This document shows, piece after piece, positions 3,503 through 31,517 of a stretch of DNA of 64,000 nucleotides. Source of the stretch: Mailhella massiliensis (lineage in GTDB: Bacteria; Desulfobacterota; Desulfovibrionia; Desulfovibrionales; Desulfovibrionaceae); NCBI RefSeq assembly GCF_900155525.1, contig NZ_LT706945.1, positions 64,501-128,500 on the forward strand, written 5' to 3'. The translations under genes were made by a program, and so were the position numbers. Position 1 is the first letter of the stretch; each line of letters opens with the position of its first letter. The notes under the pieces were generated by a model. The model saw only the letters and a program-made list of their open reading frames with translations. It ran no database searches and had not been told where the DNA came from.

Positions 3503-3658
3503 CGCGTCCGAAAGACGTTCCTGGGCTGAAGCATGTTTTCCGGGGAAAATCCCCGGACAGGCTCTGCCCGGACAAAGCGTTTCAGAGAAGAGCGCGTGCC
3601 GGAAACGCAGAGCGGCCGGATGCGCGAAGGACTCTGACCTATTTTGCGGAGAATCAGC

Positions 3659-4768: not shown

Positions 4769-4925
4769 GACAGGATGTTCCCCGTGAGACGGGGAGAGAA
4801 TATTTGGTGCCCGTGCTGTCCCTTGCCGGAACGATGCGCGGGAAAAAAGGCGCTTTTCATGTACTGCGCGCCGGGCACGGCCCGGGCGGCACGACCGGCG
4901 TCATGCCATGCCAGAGGACAGAAAA

Positions 4926-6254
4926 ATGGGAAATCAGATTGTTGACAGAATACGGGAAGCCGGCGTCGTCGGCGCGGGCGGCGCAGGCCTGCCCACGCAC
5001 GTCAAGGCCGACGCCACGGTGGACACGGTTCTTGTGAACGGGGCCTCCTGTGAGCCTTTGCTCATGAGCGATCCGCATCTCATGGAACATGAGGTGGATA
5101 CCATGCTTCGCGGGCTTAAGGCCGTTATGGAATGCACCGGCGCGAAGAAAGGCATGGTCTGCCTGAAGGGCAAGCATGTCAAGGCCATGGCTTCGGTGCG
5201 CGAAGCCGTCGCCCGTGAGGGAAGCGGTACGCTGGAAGCCTTCGAGCTCGGGGATTTCTATCCTGCGGGCGACGAACAGGTGCTGGTGTATGAAGCTCTC
5301 GGACGCATCGTGCCCGAACGCGGTCTGCCTCTTCAGGTGGGCGCCGTGGTGAGCAACGTGGAAACGCTGTACAACGTGGCCCGCGCCATGGACGGCATCC
5401 CCGTGACGGAGCGTTACCTCACCGTGGCGGGCGAAGTGCGCCGTCCCATGGTGGTCAAGGCCCCCGTGGGAACTCCCGTGGCCGATGTCATCGCCTTTGC
5501 CGGCGGCGCGACCATCTCGGAATACCGCGTGGTGGACGGCGGTCCCATGATGGGCAAGGTGCTGCCCGATGTTTCCCGCGCCGTGGTCACCAAGACCACG
5601 AGCGGCCTTCTGGTGCTGCCCCCCGATCACAACGTGGTGGCCCGCAAGGTCATGGATCCCGCCCGCGTTCGTCAGATCACCAACACCATCTGCTGCCAGT
5701 GCTCCCGCTGTACGGATCTGTGCCCGCGGCACATGCTCGGCCATTCCCTGCATCCCAACAAGCTCATGCGCGTATTCGCCGGGCAGGATCTGGCGAGCGA
5801 AACGGCGAAGGAAGCGCTTCTGTGCTCCGAATGCGGCCTGTGCGAAAAGTTCGCCTGCCCCATGATGATTTCCCCGCGCGAAGTCAACGCGCAGATCAAG
5901 AAGGAACTGATGAAGGCGGGCGTGAAGTGGGCCTCCTCCGGCCGCGCGCTTGAACCGAACGCCTTCCGTGAAGAACGCCGCGTGCCCACCGCGCGGCTCA
6001 TCCAGCGTCTGGATCTTGTGGAATACGATACGCATCCCGGCTATGCCGGAGAAATCGTCCCCTCCAGAGTGAGCATTCCGCTGCGCCAGCATATCGGCGC
6101 GCCCGCTGTGTGCCTCGTTTCCGAGGGTATGCGTGTGAAACGCGGCGATCTCATCGGGGAGATTCCTGAAAAAGCCATGGGCGCGAGGGTGCATGCCAGC
6201 ATCGACGGCGTGGTGGAGTCCGTTGCGGACGGAATGATAACTATCAAGGCGTGA
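4926..6254 (+). CDS. pduS: PduS-like RnfC-family electron transfer flavoprotein of the BMC
   Basis: A 442-residue RnfC-like protein that carries electrons for BMC enzymes (cobalamin reductase in the Pdu system). The N terminus has the NADH/FMN-binding region GVVGAGGAGLPTHVKA with LVNGASCEPLL, then an SLBB-like section, then two cysteine clusters: CCQCSRCTDLCP near residue 256 and CSECGLCEKFACP near 300, fitting two [4Fe-4S] clusters. The C terminus (VKRGDLIGEIPE ... VHASIDGVVESV) is a barrel-sandwich fold. The start at 4926 is chosen because AGAGG lies 8 nt upstream; ATG 4908 is also in frame. It is flanked by PduT-like proteins, its usual partners. No B12 enzyme is visible here, so the electron acceptor is open. 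Confidence 0.92.
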   Translation: MGNQIVDRIREAGVVGAGGAGLPTHVKADATVDTVLVNGASCEPLLMSDPHLMEHEVDTMLRGLKAVMECTGAKKGMVCLKGKHVKAMASVREAVAREGSGTLEAFELGDFYPAGDEQVLVYEALGRIVPERGLPLQVGAVVSNVETLYNVARAMDGIPVTERYLTVAGEVRRPMVVKAPVGTPVADVIAFAGGATISEYRVVDGGPMMGKVLPDVSRAVVTKTTSGLLVLPPDHNVVARKVMDPARVRQITNTICCQCSRCTDLCPRHMLGHSLHPNKLMRVFAGQDLASETAKEALLCSECGLCEKFACPMMISPREVNAQIKKELMKAGVKWASSGRALEPNAFREERRVPTARLIQRLDLVEYDTHPGYAGEIVPSRVSIPLRQHIGAPAVCLVSEGMRVKRGDLIGEIPEKAMGARVHASIDGVVESVADGMITIKA

Positions 6255-6264
6255 GGAACTTGTG

Positions 6265-6825
6265 ATGAAATTACGCACTATCGGCTGCGTGGAACTGAAC
6301 AGCATCAGCGCGGGTCTGCATGTCGCGGACGAAATGGTGAAGGCCGCCGAGGTACAGCTCGTCCTTTCCCGCCCCACCTGCCCGGGCCGTTATCTTGTCA
6401 TCGTTACCGGCGATACCGGCGCGGTGAAGAGTTCCGTGGCCCACGGACGTGAAATCGGCGCAGACATGGTGGTGGACTGGTTCGTCATTCCCAGCGTTCA
6501 TGAGGCCGTGATACCCGCCATGAACGGCACCGCCGTCTGCCCCCGCATCGATGCGCTGGGCTGCATTGAAACCTGCACCACGGCGGCCTGCGTGCTTGCC
6601 GCCGATGCCGCGGCCAAGGCGGGCCAGGTGCATCTTATCGAACTGCGTTTCGCCGCCGGTCTCGGCGGCAAGGCGTTCATCGTCATGACCGGGGAAGTCA
6701 GCTCCGTGCAGGCTTCCGTGGATGCGGGCGTGGCCGTTGTGGAAGGCGAAGGCTCCGGCCCCGTGCTCAGCCACATCGTCATTCCCTCGCCCAGCGAGGA
6801 TCTCAAAAAGCATCTTCTCGGCTGA
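6265..6825 (+). CDS. pduT: Second tandem-domain BMC-T shell protein with pore cysteine, PduT-like
   Basis: A 186-residue tandem BMC protein. Domain 1 reads TIGCVELNSISAGLHVADEM and LVLSRPTCPGRYLVIVTGD; the T-C-P-G motif matches the [4Fe-4S] Cys38 motif of PduT (T-I-C-P-G-K) even better than the copy at 2152. Domain 2 has ALGCIETCTTAACVLAADAA and GLGGKAFIVMTGEVSSV. It starts 10 nt after pduS, with AGGA 7 nt before the ATG (a GTG 3 nt earlier is in frame). Adjacent placement to pduS supports an electron relay through the shell. Confidence 0.92.
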   Translation: MKLRTIGCVELNSISAGLHVADEMVKAAEVQLVLSRPTCPGRYLVIVTGDTGAVKSSVAHGREIGADMVVDWFVIPSVHEAVIPAMNGTAVCPRIDALGCIETCTTAACVLAADAAAKAGQVHLIELRFAAGLGGKAFIVMTGEVSSVQASVDAGVAVVEGEGSGPVLSHIVIPSPSEDLKKHLLG

Positions 6826-6882
6826 TGTGATGCGGGGAGGCCCGGCCCTCCCCGCTCATGCCGGGATATATGAGGCGGTACC

Positions 6883-7242
6883 ATGGGCAGAATCAGCGAT
6901 GAACCGAAACAGCGAGTCATCCAGGAATACGTTCCGGGGAAGCAGATCACGCTCGCCCATGTGATCGCCAGCCCTCACCGGGGCATTTACCTCAAGCTGG
7001 GGCTGGACGACACCGTGAGCGATGCTCTCGGCATACTGACCATCACCCCGGCGGAAGGCGTCATCATTGCGGCGGACATCGCCACCAAGGCCGGTTCCGT
7101 GGACATAGGCTTTCTGGACCGTTTCGGCGGTTCCCTGCTTCTTGTGGGGGATGTGGCCAGCGTGGAATCGGCGCTGAAAAGCGTTATCGCCTACTTCGAC
7201 GGCGTGCTGCATTACGCCTCCGTGGACATGACCCGGACCTGA
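6883..7242 (+). CDS. pduU: Circularly permuted BMC-H shell protein, PduU/EutS family
   Basis: A 119-residue permuted BMC-domain protein. The N-terminal RVIQEYVPGKQITLAH forms the small beta-barrel that plugs the pore in PduU/EutS, followed by LGILTITPAEGVIIAADIAT, GFLDRFGGSLLLVGDV and a SVDMTRT end, all strongly family-typical. It is the last shell gene, and a terminator at 7351-7374 follows. Such hexamers probably close or gate the shell rather than pass substrate. Confidence 0.95.
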   Translation: MGRISDEPKQRVIQEYVPGKQITLAHVIASPHRGIYLKLGLDDTVSDALGILTITPAEGVIIAADIATKAGSVDIGFLDRFGGSLLLVGDVASVESALKSVIAYFDGVLHYASVDMTRT

Positions 7243-7350
7243 GCGGGCCGGAGCGTGGACGGGCGAAGCTCCGGCATGAGGGGGCGCACCTTTCATGCGG
7301 GCGGTCCGCGGTTATGGCGGGCCGCTCAGAAAAGGGACAGAAGGGCGGAA

Positions 7351-7374
7351 AAGCGCGTACAACGCGCTTTTTTT
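7351..7374 (+). terminator. Rho-independent terminator of the BMC operon
   Basis: AGCGCGT-ACA-ACGCGCT stem-loop immediately followed by a run of seven T. It ends the shell operon and leaves eutP/pduV downstream with its own or a read-through promoter. The rest of 7243-7608 holds nothing else I can support. Confidence 0.8.
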
Positions 7375-7608
7375 GTTGCTGTCGCATCAGACCAGAACGG
7401 GAGCGGCCTGTATTCACCCTGAGGTCGTTTTTTACCGCGGCGTCCCTGCTCGCAGATAAAGCATGTACACTGGGACAAGAACGCGCCATAGGCCTGCCGA
7501 GGCTGCCGTGCGGCCCCGGCAAGGAATACAGGTGCGGTGCGCGTCATGCCTTTGCCGGTACATTGTCGATGAAAAAGAGTACGGGAATCTGCGGACACAA
7601 GGAAAATC

Positions 7609-8034
7609 ATGCTGAAAACCATGTTCATAGGAGAGTGGCGTTCGGGCAAAAGCTCGCTCATACGCGCTCTTTCCGGGGCGGAATACGCGCCGCGCAAGGT
7701 GCTGGCCGTGGATTTTTTCCGTGAGTTCGTCAACACCCCCAGCGAATTTCTGGAAAACCGCCGTTTCTATCCTGCGCTCATCACCGCTTCGGCGGACTGC
7801 GACGTGCTCGTCTTCGTGCAGGACGCCACGCGTACCTTTTGTCAGATTCCTCCGGGCTTTGCCTCCATGTTCAACCGCCGCGTCATCGGCGTGATTACGA
7901 AAATCGACCTGCCGGAAGCGAATGTCGAACGCGCACGCCGTTTTCTGCGCAATGCGGGCGTGAGGGACATGTTCTGCGTCAGCGTGACGCTGGGCACGGG
8001 CATGGAGGCTCTTGCGGCCGTACTCGCCTGCTGA
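7609..8034 (+). CDS. pduV: EutP/PduV-family small GTPase-like protein
   Basis: A 141-residue Ras-like P-loop protein of the EutP/PduV family, associated with BMC loci and proposed to affect BMC positioning or to act as an acetate kinase in some species. Seen: Walker A/G1 GEWRSGKSS at residues 8-16, a G3-like NTPSEFLEN (family DTPGE) near 42-50, and G4 TKID at 97-100. It is separated from the shell operon by 366 nt and a terminator, so may be expressed separately. Full length for the family. Confidence 0.88.
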   Translation: MLKTMFIGEWRSGKSSLIRALSGAEYAPRKVLAVDFFREFVNTPSEFLENRRFYPALITASADCDVLVFVQDATRTFCQIPPGFASMFNRRVIGVITKIDLPEANVERARRFLRNAGVRDMFCVSVTLGTGMEALAAVLAC

Positions 8035-9121
8035 ACGGAAAACTGCCGGGCGGCATCATGGTATGAAAAGGCCGCCGAGGGAAAGAGCAAAGGCGGAGGA
8101 AGTGTCCCGGGAAGGGGAGACAGGCTGTTTTGCCTGAGCGTCGGCAGGGGAGTCTGTGTTCGTCGATGCGTTTACAGGAAAGACCGTGCCGTCGCCGGAG
8201 TATCCGGCAACACGGAGAATATTTTTTTCGTGCTGCTTCGGCGGGAAAGGATAATGCCCGAACAGGCGGCAGCGGAACTGCATATTGAAAAGCGACGGGC
8301 AATCTGCTGGAATCTGAAAAGACAGCCTTCAAAAATGGAGCCGCTCCGACTGCATCGGGGCGGCTCTTCTGTTTTGGAAAAGGAAAAACATACATTTTTG
8401 CGTTGTGTCATTTTCTCCAGTCAATGGAACGCTGCGGAACAGGTATGCTCCGGGTCGGGTCTTTTGTTGAAAGAAGCGTAAGAAAAAGCATCAGTTCTTC
8501 AGTACCTGCCTGTTTCACGAAAAGTCGTCCGAAGGAAAAAAGTCCGTTTGCCTTATGCCGGGGAAAGGTATTTCGCCCTGCAGATGGTTTGAATGATGGG
8601 CTGAACATTTTTGTGATGTTAATATGACCTTCAGGATATGCTGTTTTTTTTTGAAGTATCGGTGTCTTTTCTGTAGTGCCGGAGGCAAAGTTTATGGACA
8701 AAATCCGCACGAACGCTCATTATCGGAAGCAAGAAACCGAATATCGGTATCCGGTATGTCCACGGCCGGAAGAGAAGAGGAGAAAGACGGCTGCCGTCAA
8801 GGTGCACCGATAAGCACGGTATGACCGGGGTCTCCGGCGTACGCGGGAGCGGATGTCGGAATCCGAGAGAACAACATGCGTTCCGCCCTGCGGAAAGGAG
8901 GATTTCAACAACGGGGTGTTTTCTGTAGAAAATCCGCTCCAGAGACATATGCCATTGCGTACGGTTCTGACCACATATGAATATCTATAAATTATATTCC
9001 TAATGCGGAGACGAAAGATCCTTGTTGAGAGTTTTTGGATGGCGGAACATGTCGGGATAGTCGTTGCCGGACTGAACTATGTTATTTCATGCTTCGACTG
9101 GAGTATGAAGAAGGTACGGGA
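8035..9121 (+). other. Gene-poor interval with one terminator-like hairpin
   Basis: About 1.1 kb without a convincing gene; short frames here lack ribosome-binding sites or family motifs. The only clear element is the hairpin at 8338-8375. By eye it is less GC-rich than the BMC operon, and may be a scar of gene loss. Confidence 0.5.
8338..8375 (+). terminator. Candidate rho-independent terminator
   Basis: GAGCCGCTCCGA pairs with TCGGGGCGGCTC around a short loop (one G-U pair) and is followed by TTCTGTTTT. It lies about 300 nt after the EutP/PduV gene and would end that transcript. Confidence 0.65.
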
Positions 9122-10858
9122 ATGTGTATGGCGAGTCAGCCGTCTTGGAAGTATTACAGTAAACTGAGTGAGATGTCCCGCCTTCGGGCCATTGCCGAGT
9201 CCCTGTTCAACAACCGCAATCATGGAAACGGCCTCCGTTATGTTTCTCCGGCGGAAGCCTACGAAATGTCCTGCCGGCTTCCCTGGGTGACGGTGACGGA
9301 TCTGCCCATGGATGAAAGCACGGTCAGGCGTCTGGGGTTGCCTCCCGATGCCAGAGTGTTCAACGACAACTGCGGCAAAACCGTCGGGCGCAGCGCGGAG
9401 GCCCGTATTTTCTATAACCGTCTCGCTTCGGATGAAAAACTTGCCCTGGAGGAGATGCTCCGCGAAGCCGTGTATCAGATGCAGGAAGGAAACAGGCTGG
9501 TCTATGCGGAAGCCGTCATCGGTCTGGATGCCCATCTGATGCTCAAGGCGCGCATGATTGCACCGGAAAGCGATATTTCCAATATTTTTCACTGGTATGC
9601 CAATTTTACCCCTCTCGCATCCGTGCCGGAGTATGAGAAAAGCGCGGAACTGCCGGTTCAGGATATTCTTTTCGTTTCCTTCCCCGGCTGGAAGTCCGAG
9701 GAAAAGCGCTGGAGCAAGGGGTGTGTGGCCGTTGATGAAGAGCATATGACCATTTTCAATCTCGGGATGCGTTACTTCGGCGAGCGCAAGAAGGGAACCC
9801 TCACCATGGCATGGACCGCAGGTATGCGTATGGGCATGGTGGCCGCACATGCAGGCATCAAGGAAGTCGATTTTACGCAGGTGCCGGGGCTGGAGCAGCG
9901 CGGAAAGCAGATTATTGCATTTTATGGATTGTCCGGGTCTGGAAAGTCATCGCACATCAATACGATGGATAACGGCGGAACCCTCCCCCGGGAGGCCGTG
10001 TGCCGCATCGCCCATGATGACGCCTTTCAGATCGATTGCAGAAACCGGCGGAGCTATGTGTGGGAACCGGCTCTTTACGACAAAACGGACAGCCGGGACG
10101 AGAAGCATCAGGACTGGAAGTACTGCATCACCACTCAGAATATGCTGGTGATTGATTATAAGGGCAGGATCATTCCTGTGGGGCAGGATATACGCAACAA
10201 TAACGGGCGCGCCCTGTTCAGTCGTGATCTGCTGGGGAAGACCACGGACAGAATCGGTTTTCCGAATGTCATAGGCTGGCTGATGAAGGATTCCACTCTG
10301 CCGCCTCTGGTACGTCTGACGTCTCCCGCTCTGGCCGTGGCCATGGGCGCCACGCTCATGACCAAGCGCAGCAGTGCGGAAAACGTCAGTGCGGAAGATA
10401 TGGAGAAGCTGATTTTCGTGCCTTTTGCCAATCCGTTCAGAGTCTACCCGCTGGCGAAGGACTGTCTGGGCTATATCGAGATATTCCGTTCCGGGTGCGA
10501 CTGCTATATATGGTCGGGCGGCGGGGGCGGCATGTGGAACGGCTCCGACAATACCCTGAAAACCGTGCCGCTGAATGTTTCCCTTACGCTTCAGACGGCC
10601 GTTCTTGAGGGGACGCTGGAGTGGGAAGACTGGGAGCTGGTGGAAGGGGCCCGCATTCCCACGCGTGCTTCCATAGAGAAGATTCTCCCCGGATATTACG
10701 ACAGATACAATCCGCGTACGGTTCCGAATAAGGCGGATTTCATCAGTACGCTGAAAAAAAGGTTCCAGCAGCGGCGTAATTTCATCATGGACAGCGATAT
10801 CCGGGAATACCCTGACCTTATGGAAGAACTTGTACAGTCCATGAAGGTGAACGCATAA
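9122..10858 (+). CDS. Divergent ATP-dependent PEP carboxykinase family protein
   Basis: A 578-residue protein that looks like the ATP-type phosphoenolpyruvate carboxykinase family (oxaloacetate + ATP to PEP + CO2 + ADP). Visible: YFGERKKGTLTM (family GEMKKG lysines), the P-loop GLSGSGKSS at about 269-277, IAHDDAF in the place of the metal-binding DDE segment, and EPALYDKTD in the place of the EG-x-CYAKT motif. It is longer than the usual ~540 residues and its motifs are altered, so it may be a divergent subfamily or have another substrate. Start 9122 is chosen for AAGG 7 nt upstream; 9128 is also possible. It stands alone between the BMC operon and the GRE island. Confidence 0.75.
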   Translation: MCMASQPSWKYYSKLSEMSRLRAIAESLFNNRNHGNGLRYVSPAEAYEMSCRLPWVTVTDLPMDESTVRRLGLPPDARVFNDNCGKTVGRSAEARIFYNRLASDEKLALEEMLREAVYQMQEGNRLVYAEAVIGLDAHLMLKARMIAPESDISNIFHWYANFTPLASVPEYEKSAELPVQDILFVSFPGWKSEEKRWSKGCVAVDEEHMTIFNLGMRYFGERKKGTLTMAWTAGMRMGMVAAHAGIKEVDFTQVPGLEQRGKQIIAFYGLSGSGKSSHINTMDNGGTLPREAVCRIAHDDAFQIDCRNRRSYVWEPALYDKTDSRDEKHQDWKYCITTQNMLVIDYKGRIIPVGQDIRNNNGRALFSRDLLGKTTDRIGFPNVIGWLMKDSTLPPLVRLTSPALAVAMGATLMTKRSSAENVSAEDMEKLIFVPFANPFRVYPLAKDCLGYIEIFRSGCDCYIWSGGGGGMWNGSDNTLKTVPLNVSLTLQTAVLEGTLEWEDWELVEGARIPTRASIEKILPGYYDRYNPRTVPNKADFISTLKKRFQQRRNFIMDSDIREYPDLMEELVQSMKVNA

Positions 10859-12016: not shown

Positions 12017-12032
12017 TGGCACGGTTTATGAA
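12017..12032 (+). promoter_or_regulatory. Weak sigma-54-like promoter for the GRE gene
   Basis: TGGCAC at 12017-12022 is a perfect -24 element, but the -12 position reads ATGAA instead of TTGCT. It lies about 74 nt downstream of the palindrome and 45 nt before the GRE start. Given the good sites at 20195 and 24880, a degraded sigma-54 promoter is plausible but unproven. Confidence 0.35.
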
Positions 12033-12077
12033 AAGAAGGAGGTAAAACGTGAACCTTTTTTTATGAGGAGTTCTCTT

Positions 12078-14579
12078 ATGCTCGATATGGGTTGTTGTTG
12101 CTGTACTCCGCAGGAGCAATGGATAGAGGATGCCGCAAAGGGTAAGCCCAGTCCGTTCCGTGCCGAGCAGCCCCGCGTCATTGACATGCTTGAATCGTTT
12201 GACTGCACTCCCCCCGTCATCGACGTGGAACGCGCAAGGTATTTCACGGAATCCATGCGGGAAACCGAGGGACAGCATCTGACTCTTCGCTGGGCGAAGG
12301 CTCTGATGAATGTTGCCCGGAAGATGCCTGTCTACATTGAAGATACCCAGCTCATCGTGGGGCGTCTCGGTCGTGATCACTGCCGATACGGTATTCTGTA
12401 CCCCGAACTCGACGGCGATTTTTACAAGAGCGTTCTGGACGATTTCGCCACCCGCGAAAATCCCCCCATCCGCGTCATGGATGAGGATATCAAGGTCATC
12501 GTCGATGAAATCGGCGCCTACTGGAACGGCAAGACCTATCATCACGAACTGTTCAAGAAGATGCCCGAACGCTGCAAGCACATGGCCTACGGCGATCAGG
12601 AAGGACTCCAGCCCCGTTATGTGGTGGCGGAATCTTCTTCGCTCCGTTCCAGCCTGCAGTGGGTACTGGACTTCGACAAGGTGCTGAAGCTCGGTTTCAA
12701 GGGGGTGAAGGAAAACGCCAGACGTCGCCTTGAGGCTTTGGATCAGAAGGATCCCTACAACATCGTGAACCGCATTCCCTTCCTGGAAGCGGTGATGCTG
12801 ACCTGCGACGCCGTGGTGCTGTGGGCGCATCGTCATGCCGAACTGGCCCGCGAAAAGGCGGCTGTGGAAAAGGATCCCGTACGCCGTCAGGAACTTCTGG
12901 AAATTTCCGAACGTTGCGACTGGGTACCGGAAAATCCTGCCCGCACCTTCCATGAAGCCGTGCAGGCACACTGGTTCGCGCAGGCCTTCTCCCGCCTGGA
13001 ACAGCGCACCGGCTGCATTATTTCCAACGGCCGCATGGACCAGCAGCTCATTTCGTACTATCGCCACGACATGGAATCCGGCATTCTGACGGAAAAGAAG
13101 GCCTTGGAAATCCTCGGCTGCATGTGGTGCCAGATGGCGCAGTTCATCGAACTGCCCCTTTCTCCCGGCGTTATGGACACCCAGGCCGGTTTTGCGCACT
13201 GGGAAGCCGTGACCATCGGCGGCCAGACTCCGGACGGACAGGATGCCACCAACGAGCTGACGTATCTTCTGCTGCGCTCCAAGCGCGAATTTCCCACCCA
13301 TTATCCCGACCTGGCCGTGCGCGTGCATACCCGCTCGCCCAAGCGTTATCTCTGGGATATCGCGGAAACCATCAAGCAGGGGCAGGGCTATCCCAAGCTG
13401 GTCAACGACGAGGAGCTCATTCCCCGTATGCTGGCCAAGGGAGCTCCCGTCAGCGAAGTGTACGACTATGTGGTGAGCGGCTGCAACGAGACCCGTCTGA
13501 TCAACCGCGAAAGCTACATGAGCCCCGGCACGCAGGTGAACCTCTGCGCAGCGCTGGAACTGACGTTGCGCAACGGTCGCCTGAAGAAGTTCGGCGACGA
13601 GCTGTTCACTTTCGAAACCGGCGATCCATGCACCTTCAAGACCTGGGAAGAGTTCTGGAATGCCTATGTGGCGCAGCAGAACAACCTTATCACCACGGCA
13701 TTTGTACTGCAGGACACCATTCATCATACCCGCGCCAAGTACTTCGCCAGTCCTCTGGCCTCCGGTCTGCACAACCTGTGTGTGGAATCCTGCGTGGATC
13801 TGAACAGCGACCAGGCTCCCGAGGGCGCGCTGGATCTCGCTTTCTTCGACGCCATCGGCTTCGGCACTCTGGTGGACTCGCTTTCCGTCATCAAGAAGCT
13901 GGTCTATGAGGAAGGCGTCATCACCATGCAGGAACTTCTGGAAGCTCTGGATTGCAACTTTGAGGGCAAGGAAGCGCTTCAGGCCATGCTGCAGCGTGCG
14001 CCGCGTTTCGGCAACGGCGACGACTACGCGGATAATCTGTACAAGCAGGTGGAAAAAAGCGCCCTGGACTTCACTGGATACTACGCCAAGCAGTACGGCG
14101 TACAGCCCATTGAAATCCGTACCACTTCCGTAACGGCAAACGTGCCCCACGGCAAGTTCGTCAGCGCCATGCCCAACGGCCGCAAAGCCTGGACGCCGCT
14201 TTCCGACGGCAGCTCTCCCTCGCACGGTTCGGACGTGAACGGCCCGACGGCGGTACTCCTTTCCCAGTACAAGAGCACCAACTGGAATGCACCCAACCGC
14301 GCCTGCCGTCTGCTCAATATGAAGATCGCCCCCAAGACCGTGGAAGGCGACGAGGGCACGCAGAAGCTGGTCGACCTGTTCCGCAGCTTCATCGACCTGC
14401 GTGTCTGGCATCTGCAGATCAACGTCATCAACCGTGAGACCATGCTTGCCGCGCAGAAGGATCCGCACAAGTATCGCAACCTTGTAGTCCGTATCGCCGG
14501 CTACAGCGCCTACTTCGTGGACCTGAACACGGACCTGCAGAACGATCTCATCGACCGCACGGAACAGCAGTCGGTTTAA
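12078..14579 (+). CDS. Glycyl radical enzyme, isethionate sulfite-lyase (IslA)-like C-S lyase candidate
   Basis: An 833-residue glycyl radical enzyme of the pyruvate formate-lyase superfamily. The radical glycine is Gly808 in RIAGYSAYF; the thiyl pair is Cys469 and Glu471 in SGCNE. Arg190, Gln194, Trp375 and Arg681 fall at the positions I recall for the sulfonate pocket of IslA (Arg189, Gln193, Trp374, Cys468, Glu470, Arg678, Gly805), with offsets of +1 before and +3 after one gap. This suggests sulfite release from isethionate or a related sulfonate (DHPS is another option). Start 12078 is chosen because GAGGAG lies 8-9 nt upstream; ATG 12063 is in frame. Four consecutive cysteines (6-9) mark the N terminus, and no encapsulation peptide is obvious. 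The activase gene is at 17065. Confidence 0.82.
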   Translation: MLDMGCCCCTPQEQWIEDAAKGKPSPFRAEQPRVIDMLESFDCTPPVIDVERARYFTESMRETEGQHLTLRWAKALMNVARKMPVYIEDTQLIVGRLGRDHCRYGILYPELDGDFYKSVLDDFATRENPPIRVMDEDIKVIVDEIGAYWNGKTYHHELFKKMPERCKHMAYGDQEGLQPRYVVAESSSLRSSLQWVLDFDKVLKLGFKGVKENARRRLEALDQKDPYNIVNRIPFLEAVMLTCDAVVLWAHRHAELAREKAAVEKDPVRRQELLEISERCDWVPENPARTFHEAVQAHWFAQAFSRLEQRTGCIISNGRMDQQLISYYRHDMESGILTEKKALEILGCMWCQMAQFIELPLSPGVMDTQAGFAHWEAVTIGGQTPDGQDATNELTYLLLRSKREFPTHYPDLAVRVHTRSPKRYLWDIAETIKQGQGYPKLVNDEELIPRMLAKGAPVSEVYDYVVSGCNETRLINRESYMSPGTQVNLCAALELTLRNGRLKKFGDELFTFETGDPCTFKTWEEFWNAYVAQQNNLITTAFVLQDTIHHTRAKYFASPLASGLHNLCVESCVDLNSDQAPEGALDLAFFDAIGFGTLVDSLSVIKKLVYEEGVITMQELLEALDCNFEGKEALQAMLQRAPRFGNGDDYADNLYKQVEKSALDFTGYYAKQYGVQPIEIRTTSVTANVPHGKFVSAMPNGRKAWTPLSDGSSPSHGSDVNGPTAVLLSQYKSTNWNAPNRACRLLNMKIAPKTVEGDEGTQKLVDLFRSFIDLRVWHLQINVINRETMLAAQKDPHKYRNLVVRIAGYSAYFVDLNTDLQNDLIDRTEQQSV

Positions 14580-14648: not shown

Positions 14649-15476
14649 ATGAAATTCATTGATTTTCGTTTTCGTCCCTGTGTCAAGGCCGTTATCGACT
14701 CCATCGTGAACAACCCTGCGTTCAGCGGCTTTGTCGCGGAAACCGGATTCGGCAGCGGACCCGCCCCCACACTTGAAGAAGAAATCAACCTGTTCCACAG
14801 CCTTGGCGGGGAAAAATTCGTCATGAACGGCCGCGACTGTGAAACCGTATCTCGTGCTGCCTCGTCCAACCCCGGTGTGCTTGAAGCCATGAAGGCCTTC
14901 CCTCAGGACGTGATCGGTTTTTACGGTTTCGATCCCTACAAGGGCATGGCCGGTATCAACGCCTTTAAGAAGGCGGTGCTTGAAGACGGTTTCGTCGGAG
15001 CATCCATTGATGCCGACATCTGTCGCCTGCCCTTGGACGATGCCCGTTTCTATCCCCTTTACACCGTATGCTGTGAACTGAATGTTCCGGTTATCATGAC
15101 TACCGGCCCTGCCCCCATGCCGCGCGTGCCCATGAAAAACACCAGCCCCGTGCTTGTCGATCATGTCGCTTCGGACTTCCCCGAACTGCGCATCGTCATG
15201 AGCCACGCCGCCTGGAACTATCCGCAGGAAGCGCTTGCCACGGTGTTCCGCAACGAAAACGTGTACATGGATATTTCCGACGTCACCATGAACATGTGGA
15301 TGGACTTCTATGTTCCCGTCATCAACAAGCGTCTGTCCGACAAGATTTTCTTCGGAAGCGCCCATCCCTTCACACATCTGAGCGAAGCGCTGGAAGTGAC
15401 GACCTCCCTCGGCTTCGACAAGGATGTTCTGGAAAAGGTGATGTACGGCAATGCCAAGAAGTTCCTGAACATCTGA
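14649..15476 (+). CDS. Amidohydrolase-2 fold protein with lost metal ligands (probable pseudoenzyme)
   Basis: A 275-residue TIM-barrel protein of the ACMSD/amidohydrolase-2 family, recognised from its end (FPELRIVMSHAAWNYPQEAL, KIFFGSAHPF, MYGNAKKFLNI). The metal-binding residues are nearly all gone: the DFHxH motif reads DFRFRP (residues 5-10), the His after the mid-barrel PV reads VPVIMTTG, and the FGSDYPF Asp reads FGSAHPF; only the SHAAW His remains. It is therefore likely not a metal hydrolase and may bind a substrate, product or the GRE. It lies 69 nt after the GRE gene and before the MATE and activase genes. The ATG at 14649 has only a weak RBS; a GTG at 14637 is in frame. Confidence 0.8.
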   Translation: MKFIDFRFRPCVKAVIDSIVNNPAFSGFVAETGFGSGPAPTLEEEINLFHSLGGEKFVMNGRDCETVSRAASSNPGVLEAMKAFPQDVIGFYGFDPYKGMAGINAFKKAVLEDGFVGASIDADICRLPLDDARFYPLYTVCCELNVPVIMTTGPAPMPRVPMKNTSPVLVDHVASDFPELRIVMSHAAWNYPQEALATVFRNENVYMDISDVTMNMWMDFYVPVINKRLSDKIFFGSAHPFTHLSEALEVTTSLGFDKDVLEKVMYGNAKKFLNI

Positions 15477-15677: not shown

Positions 15678-17036
15678 ATGGAAAACAAGCTGGCTGTCGG
15701 CAAAATTCCCGGCCTTCTGCTTTCCCTGGCCGTTCCCGCCATGCTGGCCCAGCTGATCACCCTGTGCTATAATCTGGTGGATCGCGTCTATATCGGGCAC
15801 ATGGACGACGGCGCCGTTGCCATGACGGCCATAGGCGTGTGTATGCCCATCGTGACCATCATGATGGCGGTGGCCAGTCTGTTCGGCAGAGGGGGAGCTC
15901 CGCTCAGCGGAATCAGTATGGGCGCGCAGGATCAGGACAGGGCGGATCACATTCTGTCCAACAGCCTTTTTCTGCTTCTTCTCTCCTCCGGGCTGATCAT
16001 GCTCGGCATACAGATTTTCTGTGAACCGCTGCTTCTGCTTTTCGGGGCAAGTGCTGCAACGCTTCCCTATGCTGAGGATTACCTGCGTATCTACAGCCTG
16101 GGCACATTTTTTTTCCAGGTGAGTCTCGGGTTGAACTACTTCATCAACACGCAGGGCTTCACGAAAATCGGCATGATGACGCCCCTTATCGGCGGAGTCG
16201 TCAACATCATTCTGGATCCCATATTTATTTTCGGCCTGGATATGGGTATCCGCGGCGCGGCCATAGCCACGGTCATAGCTCAGTTCGTATCTTTTCTGTG
16301 GGTCATGCGTTTTTACAGGGGGCCGCTGGCCCTGCTTCATATCCGTGCCCGATTCATGCCGCCCTGCTGGGATCTTGTACGGCGTATTGTGGTGCTGGGC
16401 TCTTCGCCGGCATTCATGATTTCCACGGAGGGCATACTGCTGCTCAGCTTCAACAAGCAGCTTGCATATTTCGGCGGCGACATGGCCGTGGGCGCCATGG
16501 CCATACTGGCTTCGATATTTCAGCTTGTCCTTCTGCCGATGATCGGCATCTATCAGGGCGCGCAGCCCATCGTCAGTTTCAACTACGGAGCGGGCGACTA
16601 CGGTCGTGTAAAGGAGACCATCTGGCTCGCGGGCAAGGCCACGCTTTTGTATTCGCTGGTATGCACCTGCCTTCTGGTGTCGTTTCCGCGTTTTGTGGTC
16701 AGTCTGTTCACGCAGGATCAGGCTCTTGTCGAACAGGCTGCGCCCATGCTCCGTCTGTATATTTGCGGCTGCTTTTTCCTTGGAATGACCATCGTCAGTC
16801 AGGACAGCTACAACGCACTGGGAGACGGCAAGCTTTCCCTGTTCTTTGCCTTTTTCCGTAAGGGCATACTGCTCATTCCGCTCATTTATATTCTTCCGGG
16901 CTTTGCCGAGGACAAGGTGTTCGCCGTCGTCGCCGCCGAGCCCGTGAGCGATATTCTGGCTTCCGTCGCCAGTACCGTGTACTTCGTTTACTATGTAAGG
17001 AAAAAACTCACGCCCAGGCCCTCTGCGGCAGTCTGA
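15678..17036 (+). CDS. MATE family efflux transporter
   Basis: A 452-residue multidrug and toxin extrusion (MATE) transporter with about 12 membrane helices. Seen: PGLLLSLAVPAMLAQLITLCYNLVDRVYIGH at the start (the LAVPAML...N-VDR pattern), the mirrored segment LVLLPMIGIYQGAQPIVSFNYGA in the middle, and hydrophobic helices to the end. It starts with a good AAGGAG site and is followed 28 nt later by the GRE activase, so they share an operon. MATE proteins export cationic organics by Na+ or H+ antiport; here it may export a product or toxic intermediate. That role is inference. Confidence 0.88.
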   Translation: MENKLAVGKIPGLLLSLAVPAMLAQLITLCYNLVDRVYIGHMDDGAVAMTAIGVCMPIVTIMMAVASLFGRGGAPLSGISMGAQDQDRADHILSNSLFLLLLSSGLIMLGIQIFCEPLLLLFGASAATLPYAEDYLRIYSLGTFFFQVSLGLNYFINTQGFTKIGMMTPLIGGVVNIILDPIFIFGLDMGIRGAAIATVIAQFVSFLWVMRFYRGPLALLHIRARFMPPCWDLVRRIVVLGSSPAFMISTEGILLLSFNKQLAYFGGDMAVGAMAILASIFQLVLLPMIGIYQGAQPIVSFNYGAGDYGRVKETIWLAGKATLLYSLVCTCLLVSFPRFVVSLFTQDQALVEQAAPMLRLYICGCFFLGMTIVSQDSYNALGDGKLSLFFAFFRKGILLIPLIYILPGFAEDKVFAVVAAEPVSDILASVASTVYFVYYVRKKLTPRPSAAV

Positions 17037-17064: not shown

Positions 17065-17976
17065 ATGCAGGACAGAGACCGCAAGGGCATGGTTTTCAAT
17101 GTGCAGAGATTCAGTGTCCATGACGGGGACGGAATCCGCACGGTGGTCTTTCTCAAGGGATGTCCGCTTCGCTGTCGCTGGTGCAGCAACCCCGAGTCTC
17201 AACACATCACGCCGGAGCGTGCCTTCAACCCCAATCGTTGTCTGACCGCTTCGGTGTGCGGGCGCTGTGTCCGCACCTGCACGACGGGAGGGCTGACACT
17301 GACGGACGATGGACTTATCCGTTACGACCGTCTTAAATGTACGGACTGCGGCGACTGTGTGCGGCAGTGTCCTACGGGAGCGCAGTCCTGGTACGGGGAG
17401 GAACGGACCGTTGCCGACATCATGAAGAGAGTGGAGGAAGACGATGTGTTCTATACCCGCTCCGGCGGAGGGCTTACCGTTTCCGGCGGCGAGCCCCTCG
17501 CTCAGCCCGACTTCACCCACTCGCTTCTGCGAGAGGCGAAGCGGGCCCGTCTGCATACGACCATCGAAACCTGTGGGCAGTGTGCTACGGAAGACCTGGA
17601 TCTGGCCTGCAGAATGCTGGATTCGCTCATCATGGACGTGAAGAGCCTCGATGCTGCCAAACATAAGGAGTACACGGGGCAGAGCAATGTGCAGATTCTC
17701 AAGAATCTTGATCATGTATTGACGCATTTCCCCGATCTTCCCGTGCTTGTCCGTACACCGGTCATTCCGGGATTCAACGATACGGAGGAAGAGATCATGG
17801 CCATACGCCGTATGCTGCCGGATCGTCCCAACGTGAGGTATGAGGTGCTGACCTATCACCGGCTGGGAATGCCCAAGTATGGATATATCGGCCGCCCCTG
17901 GCTTATGGGAGACGTCAAGGCGGATGAAGTGTTCATGAAAGCGTTGAGGGAAAAGCTGGCGGCTTTTTCCCGCTGA
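17065..17976 (+). CDS. Radical SAM glycyl radical enzyme-activating enzyme
   Basis: Installs the glycyl radical on the GRE at 12078. The 303-residue protein has the S-adenosylmethionine-binding CxxxCxxC (GCPLRCRWCSNPES near 32-45), a two-cluster ferredoxin insert (CLTASVCGRCVRTC and CTDCGDCVRQCP at about 55-110), the SGGEPL motif, and the ETCGQ and DVKSLD strand motifs. This insert is typical of activases of the IslB/HpdA/CutD class rather than PflA. It is separated from its GRE by two genes, which is unusual. It ends at a bidirectional terminator. Confidence 0.93.
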   Translation: MQDRDRKGMVFNVQRFSVHDGDGIRTVVFLKGCPLRCRWCSNPESQHITPERAFNPNRCLTASVCGRCVRTCTTGGLTLTDDGLIRYDRLKCTDCGDCVRQCPTGAQSWYGEERTVADIMKRVEEDDVFYTRSGGGLTVSGGEPLAQPDFTHSLLREAKRARLHTTIETCGQCATEDLDLACRMLDSLIMDVKSLDAAKHKEYTGQSNVQILKNLDHVLTHFPDLPVLVRTPVIPGFNDTEEEIMAIRRMLPDRPNVRYEVLTYHRLGMPKYGYIGRPWLMGDVKADEVFMKALREKLAAFSR

Positions 17977-18023: not shown

Positions 18024-19904
18024 TCAGCGGTATTTATGCCGGAATTTCGTATAGTCTATACCGAAGCGCGTCAGCTTGCCGTACAGAGCGCTGCGTGCAA
18101 TACCGAGTTCCTGTGCCGTCAGACGTATGTTGCCGTTGCAGTGGGTGAGGGTGTCCACAATGGTCTGATATTCACGCTGGTAGAGGTTGCTTCCCGTGTA
18201 TTCGCTGGGGGGAACTGCCGGCGTCGCAGGCTGGGGAGTATCCTGCCGGTGGGGGAGAAAGTCCGGCAGATCAGCATCTGTAATGTGCGTTCCCTTTGCC
18301 AGGTTCACCGCCCGCTCTATGATGTTTTCCAGTTCCCGTATATTGCCGGGCCAGGAGTACTGCTGCATAACCTGAAGCGCCTTTGTGCTGAAGCCTGCGA
18401 TGGGGCGGTTCAGAGCCGAGGCATATTTGTGCAGAAAATGTTCGGCCAGCAGAATGATGTCGGTGGATCGGTTTCGCAGAGCCGGAATATTGATGACGAG
18501 CACGCTGAGCCGGTAGAAGAGGTCGGAACGGAAGGTGCCTCCGGCCACGGCCTCGCTCAGATTTCTGTTGGTGGCGGCGACGATGCGTACATCCACACTT
18601 TTGGTCGTCGTTCCTCCCACACGGCTGACTTCCTTGTTCTGAATGAGGCGCAAAAGGTTGGTTTGTGCCTCCATGGGCATTTCTCCGATTTCATCCAGAA
18701 AGATGGTGCCGCCGTCCGCGAGTTCGAATTTCCCGGGTTTGCCGTTTTTTGCCGCCCCTGTAAAGGCTCCGGCCTCATAACCGAACAGCTCAGACTGTAC
18801 CAGGTCGCGTGGCAGAGCTCCGCAGTTCACTACTACAAAGGGACCGTTTCTTCGGGAGCTGCCGTTATGTATGGCATGGGCGAACAATTCCTTGCCCGTA
18901 CCGCTTTCTCCCAGCAGGAGGGTTGTGATATCGCTTTGTGCAGCTACCTTGGCCAGCTGCACGGCGTTGACGATGATATCCGATTCGCCGAGTATGTCGG
19001 AAAAACGGTAAATGGCTTTGGACCCCGCTGTACGCACGGCGAATTTCTGCATTCTGGCAGTCTCGGCCAGAGTACAGACGACACCCTTGTCTTCGGGAAT
19101 GAAGGACGCGGAGAGAATATAGCGGTTCTGCGAGTTGCCCACGCGCAGCGTCACTTCCTCATCCATGACGTTGCGCTTGCGCCGTAGAATCTGCATGAAA
19201 GGCTCGCCGTCCTGCACAAAGGAGGAAATCGGCCCCAGGGTGATGCTTTCCTCTCCCGGAATACCCAGTATGCGGCGGGCGTTGGCATTGGCAGCCTTGA
19301 TGCCTCCCTGTCTGTCAAGAATGACGATGCCGTCGGTCAGCAGCTCTAGAACCGTGGACTGGTCGCTTAAAAGATCGTGAAGATGGTGATGATTGTGGAT
19401 GTTGGCGGCAAGAGAGCGGATCAGGGCGGCGGTAGCGTCATGAAAGGCTTCGCGGGGCAGAATCAGGCCGAGAAATCCGATGATCCGGTTCTTCCCGCCC
19501 TGAAGAGGTTCTATGCAGCAGCCCCAGTGGCGGAGGCCGTCCTCTTCTCTGCATTCTTCCATGAGAGTACCGGGTTGAAAGGCCCTGCTCTGCGTCAGCT
19601 CCACCGCTCCCGCGCCGTGCAGAAGCGTGCCGTCGAGCGTGAGCAGAATCAGGATTCCGTGTTCCTTCATGAAGCATTCTTCGTATTCCTTCATGACAGG
19701 GACAGCAGCATGAACAAGTTCGTGATTCGCCTGAAGTGTTTCCTGCAGTCTGCTTAAAGGCAGCGTCCGGCATCGGGTGAGTCCGTCGGCTCCGGCAGCA
19801 AAGTTGCGCTTCCATGTTTCGAGCCGGGCCTGCGTCGGGATATGGATGTCCTCTTCTCGGGAACCCTGTTTTTCTGTGGCAGCTGTGTCGTTTCGATACC
19901 TCAT
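18024..19904 (-). CDS. Sigma-54-dependent activator (GAF/PAS-AAA+-Fis HTH) of the GRE island
   Basis: A 626-residue enhancer-binding protein. The order is a GAF-like sensor (about 20-180), a PAS domain (about 190-300, [22 protein letters not shown]), the AAA+ domain with [21 protein letters not shown] and the [12 protein letters not shown] Walker B, and a Fis-type HTH at the end ([20 protein letters not shown]). This is the AcoR-like layout used to sense small molecules in the cytoplasm. The start is placed at 19904 because AAAGGAG lies 7 nt upstream. It is divergent from TRAP system 1, whose promoter region contains a perfect sigma-54 site and repeated operator-like motifs. Confidence 0.92.
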
Positions 19905-20062
19905 GGAAACTCCTTTGTTTTTTCCGACCAGCTGGACGCATTCCATCAGTCTGACTCTGTTTTCTCCCTTACGCGGAAAATCCGTGGAAAGGCTCTTTCT
20001 TCAGGAAGCGGCAGGAGGTCTGCATGGCGTGATGAGCAGCATGAAGAGGATATTTTGTTGTG

Positions 20063-20135
20063 ACCTAAATCAGGACATTGTCAAGTTATTATGTCCTGAA
20101 TCAGGATATTCATGTCCTGATCGCAAAAAGGACAT
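20063..20135 (+). promoter_or_regulatory. Three operator-like sites upstream of TRAP system 1
   Basis: Three copies of a dyad related to ATGTCCTGAATCAGGACAT: ACCTAAATCAGGACAT (20063-20078), ATGTCCTGAATCAGGATAT (20091-20109) and ATGTCC...GGACAT (20112-20135). They sit 60-130 nt before the -24 element at 20195, the usual distance for an enhancer-binding protein. Related sites precede the alcohol dehydrogenase at 24980. Confidence 0.72.
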
Positions 20136-20194: not shown

Positions 20195-20210
20195 TGGCAT
20201 AATTATTGCT
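20195..20210 (+). promoter_or_regulatory. Sigma-54 promoter of TRAP system 1
   Basis: TGGCATAATTATTGCT matches the -24 (TGGCA) and -12 (TTGCT) consensus with GG-N10-GC spacing. It lies about 70 nt before the solute-binding protein start and downstream of the operator-like sites. Confidence 0.85.
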
Positions 20211-20280: not shown

Positions 20281-21279
20281 ATGGCAAAATTCTTTCTTTC
20301 TATTTCTCTCCTGGCCCTGATGCTGGGTGTGGGGACTTCCTCTGCGTATGCTGCTGAGTATAATATCCGCTTCGCACACGACGGCGCTCCCGATGCCGTG
20401 TACTCCCAGACATTCAGAAAATTCGGTGAACTTGCTTCCTCCTATTCCGACGGCAGAGTTGCCGTAAAACTTTATGAGAACGCCGTGCTTGGCGGTGACC
20501 GCGAAGTCACGGAATCAACCCAGCGCGGCGACCTTCAGATGGGCGGTTGCGGTACTTCCAATCTCGGAATCTTCTGGCCTTCCGCCATGGCATTCGATCT
20601 GCCCTTCATCATTGATCCCGCGAAAAAAGAAGCCCTGTACAAAGAGCTCAATGAAGGCAAACTCGGTCAGTACATGAATGAACAGCTGGCCAAGGTCAAC
20701 CTCATGGCTCTGGTATATGCCGACTGCCCCAACCGCCATTATATGACGAACAAGCGCGCCATTCCCGACCTCGCTTCTCTCAAGGGAATCAAGATGCGCA
20801 CGACGGCTTCCCCTGTCGACAACATGCTGGCGGAAACGTTGAAGATGATTCCCGCCCCCATGGGCTTTGCGGAAATATACACCGCACTTCAGCAGGGAAC
20901 CATTGACGGCGAACTTCTCAGCTTCGCCGACTATTACACGTCCCGCCGCGGCGATGTGCTGCATTACGCTCTTCCGACTTCCCACAGCTATACCAGCATG
21001 GTGGGGCTCATCAGCAAATCCTACTGGGATTCCCTTCCCTCCGACGTACAGGCCGCTTTGAAGAAGGCCGCCGTGGAAGCCTGTTCCTTCGGCCAGGATC
21101 TGGTGGACAGGATGGATGCCGACGGTCTGAAGTACGGTGAACAGAACAAGATGACGGTCTATGCGTTCCCCGAAGATGTCAGGGCCACCTTCCTTGAGGC
21201 GGTGAAGCCCGTGTACGACAGGTTTGTGCCGGACATCGACGCCGAATTCTATTCCCTGCTGACGGCAACTCAGAAGTAA
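20281..21279 (+). CDS. TRAP transporter solute-binding protein (DctP family), system 1
   Basis: Periplasmic receptor that delivers an organic acid to the membrane subunits. The 332-residue protein has a signal peptide MAKFFLSISLLALMLGVGTS... cut after SAYA, then the mature start AEYNIRFAHDGAPDAVYSQ. The GIKMRTTASPVD segment holds the conserved arginine that binds the ligand carboxylate (or a sulfonate). Start 20281 has AGAAGAGG 7 nt upstream; ATG 20257 is in frame with a weaker reason. Expression is probably sigma-54 dependent. The ligand cannot be read from sequence. Confidence 0.9.
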   Translation: MAKFFLSISLLALMLGVGTSSAYAAEYNIRFAHDGAPDAVYSQTFRKFGELASSYSDGRVAVKLYENAVLGGDREVTESTQRGDLQMGGCGTSNLGIFWPSAMAFDLPFIIDPAKKEALYKELNEGKLGQYMNEQLAKVNLMALVYADCPNRHYMTNKRAIPDLASLKGIKMRTTASPVDNMLAETLKMIPAPMGFAEIYTALQQGTIDGELLSFADYYTSRRGDVLHYALPTSHSYTSMVGLISKSYWDSLPSDVQAALKKAAVEACSFGQDLVDRMDADGLKYGEQNKMTVYAFPEDVRATFLEAVKPVYDRFVPDIDAEFYSLLTATQK

Positions 21280-24607: not shown

Positions 24608-24748
24608 ATGACATGCGCCATTTCTGGAGAGACGGAGGGACGTTCCGGTGATGGTTTCGGTTTTTCTTTTTCATGGAGTCTACGCATAGGAGAGCAAGTG
24701 ACCTTGCCTGCTGATTGTGAATGATGAGTTGGGAGCGGTCTTGGTTTG

Positions 24749-24794
24749 ACCTGAATCAGTACATGCTTGCCTGTAATGACCTGAATAAGGACAT
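24749..24794 (+). promoter_or_regulatory. Two operator-like sites upstream of the alcohol dehydrogenase
   Basis: ACCTGAATCAGTACAT (24749-24764) and ACCTGAATAAGGACAT (24779-24794), exactly 30 nt apart, match the sites before TRAP system 1. An extra TGTCCTG follows at 24798. They lie 85-130 nt upstream of the sigma-54 promoter at 24880. Confidence 0.72.
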
Positions 24795-24879: not shown

Positions 24880-24895
24880 TGGCATAATAATTGCT
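24880..24895 (+). promoter_or_regulatory. Sigma-54 promoter of the alcohol dehydrogenase
   Basis: TGGCATAATAATTGCT, a full -24/-12 match with GG-N10-GC spacing and nearly identical to the TRAP system 1 promoter at 20195. It lies about 85 nt before the start codon. Confidence 0.85.
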
Positions 24896-26134: not shown

Positions 26135-26302
26135 TCGTCAGCCATTTCGTAAATTTTTATTAACTCATGTATTAATAATGTAATAATATGCTGTTGTTTT
26201 ATTTTACCTGTGATGTATGGGGAGGTGTAAAAGGAGAAAAATAGCATTTTGTGTTTTTGCAGAGGAAATGATGTTTCATTATTTTTAGTACGGAGTGTGT
26301 TT

Positions 26303-27379
<1,077 letters not shown>

Positions 27380-27398
27380 AACCTGTCGAGCTGTCATC

Positions 27399-27437
27399 CC
27401 TCTCCGTTTTCCGCTTTTGCTGCGGAAAGCGGAGAGG
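27399..27437 (+). other. Intercistronic hairpin between dctP and dctQM, system 2
   Basis: CCTCTCCG..TTCCGC (27399-27414) pairs with GCGGAAAGCGGAGAGG (27422-27437). It occupies the same position as the attenuator in system 1 and probably gives excess binding protein. Confidence 0.6.
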
Positions 27438-27476
27438 CAAGTCGGAGCCTTCATACAAGGTGTACGGGATAATCTC

Positions 27477-29378: not shown

Positions 29379-29554
29379 CAGTTCTGAAGAGCAAGGCATT
29401 TCAACACGTCTGTTGTTTTCAGCTTCAGCCTCCACCGGACTGCCGGGACTCAGACTGTCGGCGGTTCAGGTGGAGGACTGTTGCGCATCTCTGCGAAAAA
29501 GTTTCGCCATGCAGTGCATGCGGCTTTTCAAAAATTGTTCAGAAGGTATGTGTT

Positions 29555-30466: not shown

Positions 30467-30537
30467 TATGCTGTGAATGTGCACGTTTTTCCATATGTGC
30501 TGATTTATTTCATTCTTTGCAGCATGGAGGAACTGCC

Positions 30538-31449: not shown

Positions 31450-31517
31450 CGTTTTTTCCGCGTTTCCGTCGAGGCGGCGTTTCCAATGCGGGAGCTCGGT
31501 CATTTAAGGAGAAACAC

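Follow-up and report, generated by a model that had tools for sequence, protein, structure and literature searches.

The 64,000-nucleotide stretch of DNA from the gut bacterium Mailhella massiliensis analysed here (the window), part of contig C21 in a genome of 3.47 Mb (G000), encodes on its forward strand a glycyl radical enzyme (GRE) of 833 amino acids at 12078–14579, which we refer to as P0001. The genes that follow encode an amidohydrolase-fold protein, a MATE-family transporter and a radical-SAM activase, then a sigma-54-dependent activator, a tripartite ATP-independent periplasmic (TRAP) transport system and an iron-type alcohol dehydrogenase (Fe-ADH). P0001 has the hallmarks of a GRE, namely the motif VRIAGYSA (RVxG[FWY]-like) with the glycyl residue Gly808, the thiyl residue Cys469 together with Glu471, both PF02901 and PF01228, and an activase in its operon. 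It also possesses the Arg/Gln/Arg sulfonate contacts (Arg190, Gln194 and Arg681) and the aromatic-site Trp (Trp375) of the sulfonate C–S lyases, a group that includes IslA, which converts isethionate to sulfite and acetaldehyde, and HpsG, which converts 2,3-dihydroxypropane-1-sulfonate (DHPS) to hydroxyacetone and sulfite.

Catalytic and sulfonate-contact residues of P0001

A phmmer search of the PDB with P0001 returned IslA (5ymr, 1069 bits; 7kq3, 1022 bits) and HpsG (6lon, 998 bits), with CutC next, down at 452 bits. Alignment with 7kq3 places R190, Q194, W375, C469, E471, R681 and G808 on IslA R189, Q193, W374, C468, E470, R678 and G805, precisely as a preliminary description of this DNA had proposed, including the offset of +1 and then +3. 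The IslA numbering that it had given agrees with Dawson et al. 2021 (PMC8473560), which assigns the roles of these residues and has Arg189, Gln193 and Arg678 gripping the leaving sulfonate. Its view that the match was too good for chance is borne out as homology by the phmmer scores, and neither of the results that it had named as fatal was seen: the two arginines and the glutamine align with the IslA pocket, and P0001 does not fall among arylacetate decarboxylases or diol dehydratases. Where it had seen an isethionate-lyase-like sulfonate pocket, the IslA-type anion contacts and the sulfonate-lyase type of the GRE hold, but the residues are not specific to IslA. Because HpsG (6lon) carries all seven, they cannot separate the two enzymes, and an identification of P0001 as IslA on these residues was dropped.

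Automatic annotation does not settle the substrate either. P0001 scores 1245.7 bits (cut-off 1000) against NF048011, the NCBIfam model of HpsG, whose name, (2S)-3-sulfopropanediol dehydratase, is at odds with the release of sulfite by HpsG (PMC8397734). In control searches the model gave 1499.4 bits to crystallised IslA, 1508.4 to HpsG, and 1329, 1326 and 1137 to another three paralogues encoded by the genome of P0001. Since IslA, HpsG and the P0001 clade all exceed its cut-off, the model cannot assign a substrate, and the identification of P0001 as HpsG from this match was abandoned because the IslA control scored higher. Against NF048009, the model of the DHPS dehydratase HpfG, P0001 reached 445.7 bits, below the cut-off of 1000.

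P0001 belongs to a separate clade with a conserved, altered pocket

In the 288 family genomes searched, orthologues more than 80% identical to P0001 are present in four others, G001 (97%), G102 (93%), G079 (83%) and G115 (81%), the last three of which carry a genus code other than that of the window genome; no more came from 348 genomes of the class, a set that partly coincides with that of the family. The five members form one clade (support 100/100) in a 44-row tree, nested in a 17-row group (98/98) that leaves the reference IslA and HpsG both outside. P0001 falls in neither the IslA nor the HpsG clade, as the approximately unbiased (AU) test rejected its clade's grouping with IslA at p 0.005 and with HpsG at p 0.010, although the groups were defined after the first tree had been seen. 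P0001 is 54% identical to Bilophila wadsworthia IslA and 52% to its HpsG, and these two, which act on different substrates (PMC8397734), are 61% identical to one another. By sequence, then, the P0001 clade is a new third clade, separately evolved, beside those of IslA and HpsG.

Relative to IslA, and in IslA numbering, the pocket carries the changes T312C, I469N, Y679T, V680T, P681S, F682V, S684A, H685N and F688H in all five members, and all five retain the sulfonate contacts and Trp375. The packing residue Phe682 of IslA is thus not kept, its place being taken by Val685 of P0001; the substitution F682A lowered the efficiency of IslA by 1–2 orders of magnitude (PMC8473560). That the new pocket set is fixed across 81–97% identity argues for a different specificity that has been maintained.

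The TRAP solute-binding protein has diverged from IseP

The solute-binding protein of the TRAP system (20281–21279, forward strand; start inferred downstream of a sigma-54-like site) has as its closest solved relative the isethionate-specific IseP (8t9t; 36% identity, 113 of 318 residues, E 2.6e-64), the next solved structure following at 1.3e-37. We compared 13 ligand-site positions taken from the accessible part of the IseP study (PMC11668362). The window protein keeps four of these (D77, N98, R156 and R177, hence both arginines) and has changed at nine, including S95G, Y153C, N217L, H244M and W200F, so that the IseP-like residues that would support, without strictly defining, an IslA system are for the most part missing. 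Among IslA-group loci, 12 of 13 agree with IseP at all 13 sites and the remaining one at 12. Other groups have signatures of their own: ANEANGRRWN[IV]WG is common to four HpsG-group loci, TGDAITRRFLSPH to seven sister-clade loci and DGDGNCRRFLDTM to the window and G001. The binding-protein signature mostly tracks the GRE clade. Over 30 loci the GRE and binding-protein distances correlate with r 0.84, a value reached in none of 2000 permutations (best 0.41), though uncorrected for species history.

Operon order, neighbouring genes and promoters

The order GRE, amidohydrolase-like gene, MATE gene, activase was correctly given in the preliminary description. The MATE-family transporter lies at 15678–17036 and the activase at 17065–17976, both on the forward strand; the latter scores 467 bits against NF048010, the HpsH model (cut-off 430), a model whose specificity is uncontrolled. 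Next, on the reverse strand and divergent from the TRAP genes, is the sigma-54-dependent activator with PAS, AAA+ and Fis-type helix-turn-helix domains (18024–19946). On the forward strand the binding-protein gene is followed by a fused TRAP permease, DctQM (21368–23209, start inferred), a peptidase S58 family protein with a Tat-type signal (23323–24534) and the Fe-ADH (24980–26134, start inferred). The peptidase is a doubtful operon member; it is present in G000 and G001, no copy was found next to the G079 and G115 operons, and it was dropped from the core. The neighbouring enzymes did not point to a particular substrate: the Fe-ADH is similar to general dehydrogenases for methanol, propanediol and lactaldehyde.

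An amidohydrolase-fold gene follows the GRE in all five members of the clade, and in the four loci that can be read further (the fifth contig stops after this gene) a transporter and then the activase come next, with a sigma-54 regulator nearby. Three of these transporters are of the MATE family, and that of G115 is a DHA2-like MFS protein (best match efflux_EmrB, 148 bits, under the cut-off of 230). That different transporters fill this exporter-type slot suggests that it serves to dispose of the desulfonated carbon, and B. wadsworthia is described as excreting the hydroxyacetone derived from DHPS (PMC8397734). The neighbourhood had been called new on the premise that lyase and activase are adjacent in known systems. 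Novelty survives for the exporter-type gene between amidohydrolase and activase, seen only in the P0001 clade, but not for the amidohydrolase, which is common near such GREs. Adjacency is indeed usual, as 21 of 29 well-flanked loci have their activase no more than 400 bp from the GRE, but separation occurs elsewhere too, for example in Halodesulfovibrio IslA-group loci.

The TRAP genes and Fe-ADH share the same promoter architecture. Each is preceded by a forward-strand sigma-54 −24/−12-like site with one mismatch (20195–20210 and 24880–24895, respectively) and by a pair of activator-site-like palindromes TGTCCTGAnTCAGGACA (20061–20108 and 24747–24793), the second member of each pair lying 103 bp before the −24 element, TGGCATAATWATTGCT. 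At up to two mismatches TGTCCTGAnTCAGGACA has exactly four sites in the window against a simulated mean of 0.03 and a maximum of 1 in 100 simulations, a contrast softened by the fact that the motif was derived from the very sites it was then matched to. At up to four mismatches, for which about 1.8 sites per 64 kb would be expected, looser matches precede the GRE in the four relatives. The −24/−12-like site before P0001 itself (12017–12032, forward strand) is weak, with two mismatches. After a GGAGG there is a possible five-residue leader open reading frame (GTG...TGA, 12050–12065), which overlaps an alternative GRE start at 12063.

An amidohydrolase-fold protein accompanies many sulfonate GREs

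The protein encoded at 14649–15476 on the forward strand (start inferred from the MKFIDF of its relatives) has the amidohydrolase-2 fold and is BB4693-like. Its model has a predicted local distance difference test (pLDDT) score of 91, and the nearest fold is 3irs (BB4693), followed by decarboxylases of the dihydroxybenzoate/gamma-resorcylate type. In the amidohydrolase superfamily the HxH motif, the β5 His and the β8 Asp are metal-ligand positions. Here RxR replaces HxH, Thr the β5 His and Ala the β8 Asp, and only the β6 His is kept, so by these residues the protein does not qualify as a metal-dependent amidohydrolase. The same holds among its relatives: in the fetched loci none of 57 distinct homologues, the window copy included, keeps HxH, the β5 His or the β8 Asp, and all keep the β6 His. 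The window also contains a further pair of amidohydrolase-2 genes, at 29162–31449, that retain all of these positions; in the surrounding region (26249–32375) a second TRAP system is followed by this pair and by a 3-hydroxyisobutyrate-dehydrogenase-like gene.

We dropped the notion that this protein is a quirk of the P0001 locus, as it is a companion of many sulfonate GREs. In G000 each of the top four of 18 homologues (at least 215 bits) has a sulfonate-type GRE no more than 3.4 kb away, and the GRE of the IslA clade is among these. Across the 288 family genomes, at the search cut-offs applied, both genes occur in 105, the amidohydrolase only in 6, the GRE only in 8 and neither in 169 (Fisher 1.6e-60, uncorrected for relatedness). 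At least 109 of 149 amidohydrolase matches are on a contig with a GRE, at least 89 of them within 5 kb and at least 107 within 20 kb of it; for 40 of the 149 no GRE lies on the contig among the matches listed. Viewed from the GRE, 29 distinct loci have flanks of 7 kb or more on either side; in 22 of them the amidohydrolase lies within 12 kb, and the seven others include Halodesulfovibrio, whose copy sits elsewhere in the genome. The B. wadsworthia islAB cluster likewise includes an amidohydrolase-annotated gene (PMC8667426, Table 1). Because the protein accompanies GRE clades that differ in substrate, our guess is that it serves something common to them, such as handling sulfite or carbonyl-bisulfite adducts.

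Genome setting and probable sulfite respiration

G000 has 10 PFL-like genes, of which seven, P0001 included, are of the IslA/HpsG kind (at least 50% identity to P0001): one of the IslA clade (78% to B. wadsworthia IslA), two near-identical ones of the HpsG clade (83% to B. wadsworthia HpsG), P0001 and three of further clades. The two HpsG-clade genes stand about 5 kb apart (contig C28, 1140648–1143104 and 1147783–1150239). According to a 2026 study, 75% of 48 Ca. Mailhella genomes carry homologues of hpsGH and islAB (PMC13219744), and the accessible part of it makes no mention of further paralogues. DsrA is above cut-off in 12 of 19 genus genomes, the window genome, which has DsrAB, among them, and AprA is above cut-off in none of the 19; DsrA without AprA over cut-off fits respiration of sulfite and sulfonate rather than of sulfate.

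Several further GRE paralogues depart from the IslA residues. One clade (G000 C18:1227–3704, L007/L090, and L102) keeps Trp374 and Arg678 and has Gln193 replaced (RAGTN, RGGTT), and a Mailhella clade (L068, L072, L083 and L094) reads SGCASVR against SGCIEIR in IslA, the base Glu470 having become Ser in all four. A homologue that lacks the catalytic Cys (L087:4910–7351, reverse strand; G000 C28:683969–686281), with counterparts L179, L180 and L181 and a relative at L027:3389–6175, has Tyr at the Cys site in the four Mailhella copies aligned and Ser in Desulfovibrio An276, and Gly or Ser at the glycyl site. An intact L006-clade GRE lies nearby. At E <= 1e-240 the homologue without the Cys is present in five of the 288 family genomes, and the four further copies are 79–81% identical and free of stops; it may act as a partner without catalytic function. 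A PFL-like GRE (G000 C21:58324–60270) that lies immediately upstream of the window is the top PF02901 match of the genome, and window positions 3644–8034 hold alcohol-dehydrogenase-like, RnfC/PduS-like, bacterial microcompartment shell and PduV/EutP-type genes. Together these probably form a choline microcompartment locus, the alcohol dehydrogenase, RnfC/PduS and choline labels being putative. Between them and the P0001 operon, 9035–10858 encodes a 607-residue distant PEP-carboxykinase-like protein (PF01293, 46 bits).

Substrate and proposed mechanism

We consider it reasonably probable, on the sequence evidence, that P0001 is a glycyl radical C–S lyase like IslA and HpsG whose substrate is neither isethionate nor DHPS but another anionic hydroxysulfonate, which probably bears a polar substituent. 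Its operon would then be a sulfonate-respiration module, equipped for uptake, export and control by genes of its own, that probably releases sulfite. The preliminary description had left the substrate as isethionate, DHPS or an unknown sulfonate, and we prefer the last of the three because of the separate clade, the changed pocket and the changed TRAP binding protein.

A number of observations weigh against this reading. The binding-protein signature is not fixed within the P0001 clade, as G079 has I98 and T153 where the window has N98 and C153 (the first two sites of the G079 protein lie outside the sequence fetched), and in the GRE clade of L095, L096 and L097 the signature of L096 is unlike the other two. 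The AlphaFold model of P0001 has a mean pLDDT of 80.6 and is weak at the pocket, with residues 190–192 and 684–687 below 50. The window's own GRE promoter lacks a TGTCCTGAnTCAGGACA palindrome within four mismatches, and sigma-54-like matches do not exceed the number due to chance (27 in the window against an expected 35.5; with one mismatch, 2 against 2.9). TRAP genes are present in three of the loci and missing beside the GRE of G115, which has another MFS gene downstream, and Fe-ADH was seen in two of four neighbourhoods (G000 and G079), the operons of G001 and G115 having none alongside. Finally, five of the 19 genus genomes, G012 (100% complete) and G013 (96%) among them, yield no DsrA match, and G006 has an AprA-like match at 381 bits, under the cut-off of 641.75.

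P0001 could instead be a diverged isethionate sulfite-lyase, an extra copy with the same substrate, as its seven IslA residues, the two IslA structures at the head of its PDB matches and IseP as the nearest solved binding protein might be taken to say. Its position outside the IslA clade (AU p 0.005), the Val in place of Phe682, whose change to Ala was costly in IslA, the 4 of 13 IseP ligand-site residues and the presence in the same genome of an IslA-clade gene beside a binding protein that matches IseP 13/13 make this very unlikely in our view. Conversion of DHPS, by an HpsG-type lyase or one acting on a DHPS stereoisomer, would account for the NF048011 score and for an activase that passes the HpsH model, and a C3 sulfonate would be well accommodated by the greater width at position 682 (Val here, Ile in HpsG). 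But NF048011 is unspecific, given that IslA scores 1499 bits, P0001 lies outside the HpsG clade (AU p 0.010), the binding-protein signature is unlike that of the four HpsG-group loci, and two HpsG-clade genes are already in the genome, and we think DHPS an unlikely substrate.

The remaining alternatives concern the bond cleaved and the anion bound. The leaving group varies among GRE eliminases, and the product that HpfG forms from DHPS, 3-sulfopropionaldehyde, retains the sulfonate (PMC11489063); P0001 might similarly be a dehydratase or ammonia-lyase that binds a sulfonate and breaks a C–O or C–N bond, in which case the export-type transporter could clear a sulfonated product. We find this quite unlikely in light of the low HpfG-model score, of contacts which in IslA hold the sulfonate as it leaves (PMC8473560), and of a host in which DsrAB without AprA over cut-off makes sulfite a likely prize. 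That the pocket holds a carboxylate or phosphonate, so that the substrate is no sulfonate at all, gains something from the loss in the binding protein of S95, Y153 and N217, three contacts of IseP to the sulfonate (PMC11668362), but the GRE keeps its three sulfonate contacts and Trp375 in five of five members and its characterised relatives above 50% identity, IslA and HpsG, use sulfonates, which renders the idea highly improbable.

Returning to cleavage of a different hydroxysulfonate, and borrowing the chemistry by analogy from IslA, we envisage that the sigma-54 activator would turn on the TRAP genes and Fe-ADH, and probably the GRE genes too, and that the TRAP system would import the sulfonate. 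The activase would generate the Gly808 radical, the resulting Cys469 thiyl radical would abstract hydrogen from the hydroxyl-bearing carbon and Glu471 would accept the hydroxyl proton, upon which sulfite, held by Arg190, Gln194 and Arg681, would depart and be reduced by DsrAB. The residual carbonyl compound might be reduced by Fe-ADH, exported by the MATE protein, or both. More broadly, and as a tentative proposal that falls somewhat short of probable, sulfonate GREs could represent a radiation in gut sulfite respirers with clade-specific substrates and co-diverged TRAP binding proteins, in which P0001 serves a new substrate class and the arginine-bearing amidohydrolase-fold protein, devoid of the usual metal site, is a dedicated and hitherto unrecognised desulfonation component, perhaps one that deals with sulfite or with its carbonyl adducts.

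In the open literature consulted, GRE desulfonases have been characterised for isethionate and for DHPS. The existence of a third clade whose pocket is fixed and different, in a host with DsrAB and no AprA over cut-off, would imply that a further gut sulfonate feeds hydrogen sulfide production. Automatic annotation hides both such substrate differences and the sulfite-lyase chemistry itself, because a model named for a dehydratase passes IslA, HpsG and the P0001 clade alike. The amidohydrolase-fold companion, for its part, offers a testable component of a studied pathway that the open literature, as far as accessible to us, has so far left undiscussed.

Comparison with known systems

With IslA/IseG (B. 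wadsworthia 7kq3, D. vulgaris 5ymr) the P0001 system has in common the fold family, the Cys/Glu/Gly triad, the equivalents of Arg189, Gln193, Arg678 and Trp374, and TRAP uptake. It differs in identity (54–56%), in its separate clade, in T312C, I469N, V680T, F682V and other β8 changes, in the amidohydrolase and exporter genes that part GRE from activase, and in its binding-protein pocket. HpsG (B. wadsworthia 6lon) shares the seven pocket and catalytic residues, and the activase of P0001 passes the HpsH model; the differences are 52% identity, the separate clade, residue changes in 469–490 and 679–688, and another binding-protein signature. The amidohydrolase-fold companion can be set beside BB4693 of Bordetella bronchiseptica (PDB 3irs, titled as uncharacterised), which is 30% identical and shares the amidohydrolase-2 fold, the R-x-R, the β6 His and the absence of both the β8 Asp and the β5 His. 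Another parallel to the system is a sister clade rich in Mailhella (G000 C28:1003868, L005/L091), likewise uncharacterised, which differs in having T at 312, A at 469 and V at 680, an adjacent activase and the binding-protein signature TGDAITRRFLSPH. It shares with P0001 59% identity, the RTxSVTANVPHG strand and an IseP-like binding protein with F200 and L217, and in G000 it has an amidohydrolase, an Fe-ADH and a regulator close by, just as P0001 does.

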